DNA of 38,716 bases from Defluviicoccus sp. Its GTDB lineage: Bacteria; Pseudomonadota; Alphaproteobacteria; MPNO01. Below, one piece after another: positions 21,733 to 26,520 of this stretch; positions within the stretch are counted from its first letter, which is position 1; the number at the start of each line of letters is the position of its first letter. The stretch covers positions 1-38,716 of the forward strand of contig JAPPIT010000177.1 of the NCBI GenBank assembly GCA_028820505.1, in the 5' to 3' direction. The notes beneath the pieces were generated by a model. The model had not been told where the DNA came from. It was given only the letters and a program-made list of their open reading frames with translations, and did not search any database. Position numbers and translations under genes: made by a program.

Positions 21733-21806
21733 CCCGCCTCGTAGGGATAGGTTGAGGGGCGGCCGGCGGGCGCGGTCCGGCGACGGAAGCGCCGCCACTG
21801 CCCCCT

Positions 21807-21841
21807 TCCGTCATGCCCGGACTTGTTCCGGGCATCCACGT
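21807..21841. repeat. REP-like palindrome, left member of an inverted pair
   Basis: A 35-bp unit containing the palindrome core TGCCCGGACTTGTTCCGGGC flanked by GTCA and ATCCACG. The exact reverse complement of the whole unit is found at 21888-21910 plus 22201-22212, where it is interrupted. The GGACTTGTTCC core is a REP-type element common in alphaproteobacteria. A further copy is at 26490-26520. Confidence 0.8.
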
Positions 21842-21910
21842 CTTGCGGCATCGCAGTGCAAGCGGGCGCCGGCGAGGTGGAGGAGGGACGTGGATGCCCG
21901 GAACAAGTCC

Positions 21911-22189
21911 ATTGCTGTCCGGTTTAACTTTGGTGGATGGGGTGTATGGCCAGGTTACCCGCGGGTTTCCGGCGCACCGGTCCGGTCGAGGCTCGGATTG
22001 CGGGACGCTCGCACCTCCCTCCCGTGTCCCCTGCTGTCACCCCGGACTTGTTCCGGGGTCCAGACTGTCAGGCGCCGCTCTCGCCCGGCTTCCCTGGACC
22101 CCGGAACAAGTCCGGGGTGACAGCGGAGGGGCGGAGACGGTCCCGTTTGTCGGCACAGAGCCCGTTCCGAAGTTAAACCAGACAGCAGT
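21911..22189. mobile_element. MITE-like non-autonomous insertion with inverted ends and 11-bp target duplication
   Basis: The ends are inverted repeats matching at 19 of 22 positions: ATTGCTGTCCGGTTTAACTT on the left, and the reverse complement of the right end, ACTGCTGTCTGGTTTAACTT. Both sides carry GGAACAAGTCC (21900-21910 and 22190-22200), a direct duplication of the REP target. No transposase frame fits inside 279 bp. A duplication of this length fits IS4-like transposases acting in trans, which is inference. The element carries its own REP pair (22033-22124). Confidence 0.8.
22033..22124. repeat. Perfect 31-bp inverted repeat (REP pair) inside the MITE
   Basis: Bases 22033-22063 (GCTGTCACCCCGG, then ACTTGTTCCGGGGTCCAG) are the exact reverse complement of 22094-22124, with 30 bp between. 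Each arm has the same ACTTGTTCC core as the outer REPs but with CCCCGG/GGGGTCC flanks. On RNA it would make a very stable cruciform-like hairpin. Confidence 0.85.
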
Positions 22190-22273
22190 GGAACAAGTCC
22201 GGGCATGACGGACGAGGTGTCGTTGGCTTCCGACTCGTCGACTTAGCCCTATAAGCCCCCTTCGGGACGCCTC

Positions 22274-23995
22274 TTACGCCGCCGCTTCCGCCAGCAGCGC
22301 GTCGGAGATCTTCTCGGCGCACATGATGGTGGGGATGTTGGTGTTGGCGCGCGGGACGCAGGGGAAGATCGAGGCGTCGCACACGGTCAGCCCCTCGACG
22401 CCGTAGACCGCGCCCGACGGGTCGGCGACCGCCATCGGGTCGTCCGCCGCGCCCATCCGGCAGGTCCCAGACGGGTGCCAGCAGCCGGTGACGTTCCCGC
22501 GCACGTATTCCTCCATCCGCTTCTCGTCGCCCAGCAGGTCCCGGAGCGTGTCCCCCATGGTGATCAGGTTCCTGATCGCGGAGCGCCGGACCGGCCCGGG
22601 CAGATCGAGGATGGCGGCGAGGATCGTGGTCAGGACGCGGTTCTTCGTCGTCACCGCGCCGATCCTCTTCACGCGCTCCGAATAGGCGCTGGGGAAGGGG
22701 TCGCGGGCGATCCTTCGCAGCGTGGGGTGATCGAAATAACCCGCCATGCGCCGGAGACCCTGGGTCAGGCGGTCGTAGTCGCGCCGGTCGGACAGCATGT
22801 TGAAATCGACGTCGGGCTCGGCTGCCGGATCGGCGCTCGCCAGCCGCAGCCTGCCGCGCGAATAGGGCTTGTTGCACCACATCAGGAACGATCCCAGACG
22901 GATGCCCACCGGATGCCAGCCCGACTTGGCCGTCACCGAGACATACATGTCGCCCGGCCCGCAATCGGCCACCCCCGAGGAGTAGCGGAAGGCGATATGG
23001 GCGTGTCTCCGGTCCGGCGTGCGGAGCCGCGCGCCGTTGGAGAGATAGGCGGAGACGGCAAGCGTCGGATGCTCGTTCAGATTGGCGCCGACGCCCGGGC
23101 GGTCGGCGACCACGTCGATGCCGAGATCGCGCAAGTCGCCCGCGGGCCCGACGCCCGAGCGCATCAGGAGAGGGGGCGTGTGGAGCGCGCCGGAAGACAC
23201 GACGATTCGATTGCCGCGGACCTCATGCGTTTTCCCCCGCTGTCTGACGTGCGCGCCCGTAACCCGCTTGCCTTCGGAGATCAGGCGTTCGACCGTCGTT
23301 TCCGAAACGATGTGGAGATTGGGCCGCTTGCGCGCCTCGGCGTCGAGGAACCCCATCGCCGCCGACGCCCGTTGCTCGTCCTTGTTGGAGATCGCGCAGG
23401 CGAACCAGCCGTCCTCGAAGAACCCGTTCTGGTCGGGCAGGGGCTTGAGACCGTCATCGGTCAAGGCTTGGGAGACGGCACGCGAGAAATCCGTCCATTC
23501 CGGCTCGGGCACGCGGCGCACCGGGATCGGGCCGTCCTTGCCGTGATAGTCGTCGTCGATGTCCTGGTCGGTCTCCAGCTTCCTGAAATAGGGCAGAACG
23601 TCGTCCCAGCCCCAGCCGCGCGCGCCGAGCGACTCCCACTCGTCGTAATCGAGCGGCGCGCCGCGATTGGCCATCTGGGCGTTGATCGACGAGCCGCCCC
23701 CGACCACGCGGGCCTGCTCCATGAAGCGCGGGGTGCGCCGGTCCGGCTCGTTGGTCGGGTTGTGCGACAGGCGGACCTTGAGATCGCTCCAGTGATAGGC
23801 GGGATTGAAGGCGGCGCCCAGCGCGTAGGAGCTGCGGATGTCCGCGGGCTCGCTGCCGGGCGGATAATCCTTGCCCGCCTCGATCAGCGCGACCTCGCCG
23901 CGGCCGTCCGCCGACAGCCGGTTGGCAAGCGTGCAGCCGGCCGACCCGCCGCCGAGGATCACGTAGTCGAAACGCTTCGAAAAAATCTCCGACAC
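22274..23995 (-). CDS. GMC family FAD-dependent oxidoreductase (choline dehydrogenase-like)
   Basis: A 573-residue glucose-methanol-choline oxidoreductase that oxidises an alcohol to an aldehyde or ketone. The N-terminal FAD-binding motif is ILGGGSAGCTLANRL (about residues 13-27). The GMC signature 1 region is RVVGGGSSINAQMANRG, and signature 2 is SSGALHTPPLLMRSGVGP. The catalytic His is in CWHPSGTCRMG, and the second active-site position is in ANTNIPTIMCAEK. No signal peptide is seen. Its start lies 19 bases after the stop of the second UbiD gene on the same strand, so the two form an operon. The natural alcohol substrate is unknown. Confidence 0.94.
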   Translation of the reverse strand: MSEIFSKRFDYVILGGGSAGCTLANRLSADGRGEVALIEAGKDYPPGSEPADIRSSYALGAAFNPAYHWSDLKVRLSHNPTNEPDRRTPRFMEQARVVGGGSSINAQMANRGAPLDYDEWESLGARGWGWDDVLPYFRKLETDQDIDDDYHGKDGPIPVRRVPEPEWTDFSRAVSQALTDDGLKPLPDQNGFFEDGWFACAISNKDEQRASAAMGFLDAEARKRPNLHIVSETTVERLISEGKRVTGAHVRQRGKTHEVRGNRIVVSSGALHTPPLLMRSGVGPAGDLRDLGIDVVADRPGVGANLNEHPTLAVSAYLSNGARLRTPDRRHAHIAFRYSSGVADCGPGDMYVSVTAKSGWHPVGIRLGSFLMWCNKPYSRGRLRLASADPAAEPDVDFNMLSDRRDYDRLTQGLRRMAGYFDHPTLRRIARDPFPSAYSERVKRIGAVTTKNRVLTTILAAILDLPGPVRRSAIRNLITMGDTLRDLLGDEKRMEEYVRGNVTGCWHPSGTCRMGAADDPMAVADPSGAVYGVEGLTVCDASIFPCVPRANTNIPTIMCAEKISDALLAEAAA

Positions 23996-26489: not shown

Positions 26490-26520
26490 CGTCATGCCCG
26501 GACTTGTTCCGGGCATGACG
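26490..26520. repeat. REP-like perfect palindrome
   Basis: A 31-bp element whose two arms (CGTCATGCCCGGA and its reverse complement) flank a five-base centre, CTTGT. It is the same family as the units at 21807 and 21888, here as a single symmetric unit. It may act as a bidirectional transcript-end hairpin. Confidence 0.8.

Follow-up and report, generated by a model that had tools for sequence, protein, structure and literature searches.

An inverted pair of 35-bp CGTC-tagged REPs lies in the window, by which we mean the whole 38,716-nucleotide stretch of the Defluviicoccus sp. contig that was analyzed. Its first unit is intact and its second is split by a short insert that carries another REP pair, which raises the question of what this insert is, what moves it and why REPs occur both around it and within it. 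Our analysis suggests, with a probability of roughly 0.85, that it is a non-autonomous cut-and-paste MITE, moved by an IS4Sa-like transposase, that targets the REP apex and carries REPs as cargo. The features of the locus are as follows; the REP units and terminal inverted repeats were read directly, and the boundaries of the duplication were taken from L301 and Rhizobium relatives.

21733–22277, no strand: whole intergenic block (545 bp), missing at the orthologous places in G001 and G003
21808–21842, + strand: REP unit 1, CGTC-tagged and intact, CCGTCATGCCCGGACTTGTTCCGGGCATCCACGTC
21887–21910, − strand: REP unit 2, left part, through the duplicated apex (apex included)
21901–21909, no strand: target-site duplication, left copy, GAACAAGTC
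21910–22190, no strand: MITE of an IS4Sa-like family, 281 bp with CA...TG ends
21910–21933, + strand: left terminal inverted repeat, CATTGCTGTCCGGTTTAACTTTGG
22033–22063, + strand: cargo REP unit of the CACCCCGG type, left arm of the internal pair
22094–22124, − strand: cargo REP unit, right arm of the internal pair
22167–22190, − strand: right terminal inverted repeat, CACTGCTGTCTGGTTTAACTTCGG, read inward from 22190 to 22167
22191–22199, no strand: target-site duplication, right copy, GAACAAGTC
22201–22211, − strand: REP unit 2, right remainder, GGGCATGACGG

The split REP and the inserted element

REP unit 1 is of an asymmetric type, CGTCATGCCC-GGACTTGTTCC-GGGCATCCACGTC, and its 31-bp core has 244 exact copies in the genome. 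Once one copy of the flanking repeat is removed, unit 2 (21887–21910 joined to 22201–22211) matches the reverse complement of unit 1 exactly over all 35 bp, which bears out the claim of the first-pass annotation that the pair was perfect before insertion. That annotation placed the element at 21911–22189 (279 bp) with 22-bp inverted ends and 19 matches; counted over 24 bp, 21 positions match. Its description of a gene-less element also holds, since 281 bp is too short for a transposase and carries mechanical ORFs only, as does that of a perfect 31-bp internal REP pair, which is of a different REP type from the host pair. Terminal inverted repeats, a target-site duplication, short length, the lack of a transposase gene, and ends and target common to two autonomous elements (L246 and L188) identify the element as a MITE. 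A search of Rfam gave no match.

The sequence GGAACAAGTCC flanks the insert at 21900–21910 and 22190–22200 and had been taken as an 11-bp duplication. Its outermost C and G are ambiguous. In canonical REPs a C always stands outside the element's A and is compatible with REP sequence as well, which leaves a range of 9 to 11 bp for the duplication. L301, a relative in a different REP, has junctions in which CGTCAAGCG and CGCTTGATG are each followed by CACTAC; these junctions in another REP type assign the C to the element and give a duplication of 9 bp. Rhizobium copies likewise show 9-bp duplications (GGGCCTGCG and GCACCATGT) adjoining CA ends. Insertion into a REP thus stands, with a window duplication that is probably 9 bp plus one ambiguous C/G per side, and an element that probably starts with 5'-CA.

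At the orthologous sites in G001 and G003, the whole 545-bp block is missing, REP pair included, so the block dates to the window's lineage. These sites do not show the REP pair minus the MITE, as an empty site had been expected to do, whereas a paralogous comparison at contig C119 does so for an identical event. The left arm of the block (21733–21806) is a diverged dispersed repeat that flanks REPs elsewhere too. A diverged repeat family with GGGGCTTATATGGA..CTTGAC ends borders REP/MITE blocks at several loci (L051:1039–1600 and window 21733–21806) and is possibly an outer MITE. We do not claim an enclosing MITE in the window, as the outer inverted arms around the REP pair score 20, below the 95% level of shuffled sequence (26), and the left arm alone is a dispersed repeat. 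Elsewhere in the window, an intact, perfectly symmetric REP palindrome, GTCATGCCCGGACTTGTTCCGGGCATGAC, lies at 26491–26519 and is one of only 20 in the genome.

REPs as target and cargo across the genome

The ends of the element recur dozens of times in the genome. An 18-bp end pattern has 19 exact copies and, within 3 mismatches, 74 matches versus 1 for the reversed control pattern, and exact TGCTGTCCGGTT ends number 88, a few of which are chance coding matches. The end search took in no flanking sequence; a standard half-REP (arm plus apex) adjoins 69 of the 77 unique ends, at least a REP arm or apex is found at 75, and only two have no REP. The flanks comprise 44 CGTCATG-side ends with apex GGACTTGTTCC, 19 CGTCATG-side ends with the reversed apex and 6 GTGGATG-side ends. 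Nearly all ends therefore sit in REP apexes, in line with the earlier suggestion that other copies might occupy REP cores. The same end-plus-apex junction appears in contigs labelled Defluviicoccus, Tepidamorphus, Caenispirillum, Pelagibius and other Alphaproteobacteria, labels that are provisional, many of the contigs being metagenome bins.

Intact REPs (244 asymmetric and 20 symmetric) account for about 0.15% of the 5.49-Mb genome. The draft consists of 228 contigs with many breaks at these MITE ends, and breaks such as those of C3, C5, C27, C40, C80, C200 and C203 of this draft (G000) fall inside REPs or MITE ends, so repeat counts are lower bounds. REPs are concentrated at contig breaks, and a count in 837 kb sampled at random from large contigs accordingly comes out too low.

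In many family members, a complete copy of the host REP pair occupies a fixed position. Complete elements have as cargo a pair of CACCCCGG-type REPs, at about 70 or 127 bp from one end, a host-type pair, at about 95 to 140 bp from one end, or both. Host-type REP units lie inside such an element in at least 15 of the 69 listed, a lower bound with many REP units at contig ends, and they do so at recurring distances, mainly 87–95 and 113–145 bp. The C119 locus is a stack composed of a REP, an element, a host REP pair, a second element in REP 2 and a second REP pair. Its host element aligns with the sibling L051 across the restored REP, and the junction is matched by siblings with an intact pair; on this sequence evidence, the REP cargo of some elements is itself occupied by others and a paralogous empty site exists. 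Together with the placement of the ends and the fixed-position cargo, this nesting upholds the earlier proposal of nested mobility with REPs as both target and cargo.

The family also contains chimaeric copies and mixed flanks. Two elements of about 500–540 bp (L110:784–1287 and L115:924–1461) combine two distinct REP pairs with ends that belong to different subfamilies and look like recombinants between these. In a Defluviicoccus bin129 contig, a MITE-like element with the same ends (L180:3851–5584) includes an ORF for an IS110-like transposase, which seems to belong to a second REP-targeting IS, unrelated to the MITE and inserted in its cargo region.

The sites fall into three classes according to their arms and apexes. 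Class A, with one CGTCATG arm, one CATCC arm and direct apexes (10 copies, the window's included), reads as plain insertion into a REP. Class B has CGTCATG arms on both sides and direct apexes (15 copies). Direct apex repeats occur in 27 complete copies, among them the autonomous L246 and the window copy. Class C also has CGTCATG arms on both sides, with inverted apexes always in the order GGACTTGTTCC...GGAACAAGTCC (18 copies versus one exception with a different arm type). In the full set of complete copies, these 18 have apex copies that are inverted, not direct, an outcome that simple insertion does not yield and a point against our main reading. For this F..R order in 18 of 19 cases, the chance is about 4e-5 (one-sided, calculated by hand).

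The two further classes mark the loss of the REP-pair interior. In class C, precisely the outer half of each REP in a pair is retained and what lay between has been replaced; as its likely origin we favor occupation of both REPs by elements, with a later deletion from one element end to another. Flank shuffling by recombination as the sole cause of the inverted-apex class was rejected, given the 18 of 19 cases in F..R order and the uniformly direct apexes of class A. Class B is explained by one direct case, C224, in which the host element is nearly identical to its sibling L051 minus 77 bp of REP pair between two TCCGGGCAT repeats, and a second element occupies the remaining REP. This class has more members than the 20 empty symmetric palindromes would lead one to expect. 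Perfect palindromes, with a predicted DNA hairpin of −16.7 versus −11.4 kcal/mol, may be the better targets, or insertion may be followed by collapse.

A probable IS4-family partner and competing explanations

Complete autonomous relatives with the same ends, ISs of ~1.26 kb in REP apexes, occur in the same genus and in other Alphaproteobacteria. L246 (G001:C100, from the window's genus) is a 1257-bp IS in the 11-bp convention that lies in a REP between direct GGAACAAGTCC repeats and has ends of the window type, and L188, from another genome, is a 1269-bp IS; both answer the earlier call for a transposase with matching ends. Each has one transposase ORF with the Pfam domains DUF4372 and DDE_Tnp_1, and the L246 protein scores 245.7 bits against NCBIfam transpos_IS4_1 (cut-off 115). 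The motifs D(62-66)D(105)E and Y(2)R(3)E(6)K in this single ORF assign both transposases to the DDE/YREK type of the IS4 family. The IS4Sa subgroup is marked in the literature by CA------T ends, duplications of 8–10 bp and a size of 1150–1750 bp (PMC2266710), and the ends CA(C/T)TGCTGT, the 9-bp duplication and the size of about 1.26–1.27 kb agree with it. The window element is most fittingly classed as the MITE of an IS4Sa-like IS that targets REPs, for which ISRm22 is a precedent. Distant relatives (L300, L301 and copies on Rhizobium and S. meliloti plasmids) also lie in palindromes or REP-like sites.

The window's own draft genome yielded no transposase of the L246 kind at E ≤ 1e-60, which speaks against the main reading as regards present-day mobility there. 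A search of the own and genus genomes gave a strong match in G001 only, and among 385 genomes of the class two had such a match. None of these ends lies near the PF01609 matches of the own genome, and a contig-end tail in C157 does not continue into an IS. An IS with these ends could be unassembled, because the draft is broken at so many of them.

In sequence, MITEs and complete ISs have matching ends, and placement in REP apexes, duplications, REP cargo and nesting are evident. We infer that the IS4 transposase moves the MITE in trans and that the apex is recognized as a palindrome or hairpin. The transposase would recognize ends of the form 5'-CA(C/T)TGCTGTCCGGTTTA and insert them at positions about 9 bp apart on either side of the apex in a CGTC-tagged REP hairpin, which would split the REP and duplicate its apex. 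Since many members carry REP pairs, each transposition could lay down new preferred targets, with elements stacking inside elements.

An improbable alternative, though the strongest of the rivals, is that the element is an old immobile relic, distributed by recombination among repeats and not by transposition. Divergence of 10–30% between copies, the chimaeric copies with mixed flanks and the lack of an assembled transposase in the window's genome are consistent with it. However, exact apex duplications occur at many unrelated loci, a full-length IS with an intact transposase is present in a same-genus genome, and shuffling would scramble class A too, yet 10 of its 10 copies keep direct apexes.

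It is less probable still that the REP pair moved as a RAYT-driven REPIN with the inner element as a passenger. The CGTC tag and inverted pairing fit REPIN anatomy, and the outer REPIN halves are kept in all class C copies, but no Y1_Tnp/RAYT (PF01797) match was found in the window's genome, whereas control genomes, E. coli and Caulobacter among them, respond. The ends, duplications and IS relatives also account for the element's movement without a RAYT. The REPIN label given to the pair is thus apt for two inverted REPs forming a dispersed unit, and not for the cognate RAYT that its strict sense implies; with no PF01797 match, these REP pairs are without the feature that ties REPINs to RAYTs.

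We consider it very unlikely that the half-REPs were never a target and instead belong to long terminal inverted repeats of the element itself. In the 18 F..R cases of class C, both flanks do read CGTCATGCCC-GGACTTGTTCC inward as inverted repeats, but the 27 copies with direct apexes, the intact REP 2 restored at C119 and the other REP sequences at the ends of relatives in other genera all argue against it. Bridge-RNA-type (IS110/IS1111) insertion, for which one could cite the known IS110 REP inserters (PMC1525189) and the ORF inside L180, has a negligible chance of being correct, as the element is bounded by genuine terminal inverted repeats and by a duplication of about 9 bp, the autonomous copies encode an IS4 DDE transposase and not the DEDD type without long duplications, and the L180 ORF is an additional insert between MITE ends.

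REP spread in a genome without a detected RAYT

Insertion of ISs into REPs is established, IS4-family ISRm22 included (PMC1525189). All copies of ISRm22, an IS4Sa-subgroup element of Sinorhizobium meliloti, lie at the REP symmetry axis like the window family (PMC1525189; IS4Sa placement, PMC2266710), but it is an autonomous IS with reported 6-bp duplications and no reported MITE form with REP cargo; L344 from pSymB is only a candidate ISRm22. The nearest named plasmid relatives, the ISRel1/ISRm16-like IS4 elements of Rhizobiaceae, encode transposases 42–50% identical to the L246 protein. Those copies examined from Rhizobium and S. meliloti have ends of the form CA..GCTGTCCGG, three of them with 9-bp duplications in palindromic sites, although these are full-length ISs and the S. 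meliloti type of end diverges past GCTGTCCGG. The end test found no ends for an ISRel1 copy (L343). Fixed-point insertion in REPs is likewise known for IS1397/ISKpn1 and ISPsy8 (IS3) and for ISPpu9/10, ISPa11 and IS621 (IS110) (PMC1525189), which differ in transposase family and have short or no duplications.

REP dimers regularly embedded in a longer inverted repeat, as here, are represented by GTAG-15 of Anabaena and CGTC-1 of Halothiobacillus, but no IS has been assigned to them and their enclosing repeat is not reported to insert into REPs (PMC3733652). In Pseudomonas REPINs, two inverted REPs also form one dispersed unit (PMC3116915), which differs in being tied to a RAYT. In the open-access literature, we found no report of a MITE that both carries REP pairs and targets REPs.

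REP movement is usually credited to RAYTs. This genome holds more than 260 intact REPs, no detected RAYT and a MITE family that targets and carries REPs, and REP cargo may accordingly represent a candidate RAYT-independent route for REP spread, an alternative that can be tested. The elements also bring together naturally occurring IS4 transposases that are very highly specific for one kind of target, the palindrome apex. Because dozens of relatives in the same genome sit in and carry REPs, and sometimes nest, our findings suggest that each of two kinds of repeat can promote the spread of the other. Targeting of REPs by ISs is known; what is new, and still unproven, is the reciprocal cycle of cargo and target. 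We put forward only tentatively that REPs and IS4Sa-type MITEs form a mutual amplification cycle without a RAYT, in which cargo spreads REPs, apexes serve as landing sites and the pair interior often collapses or is replaced. If such a cycle operates, an ordinary DDE transposase would be what drives the abundance of REPs in this lineage.
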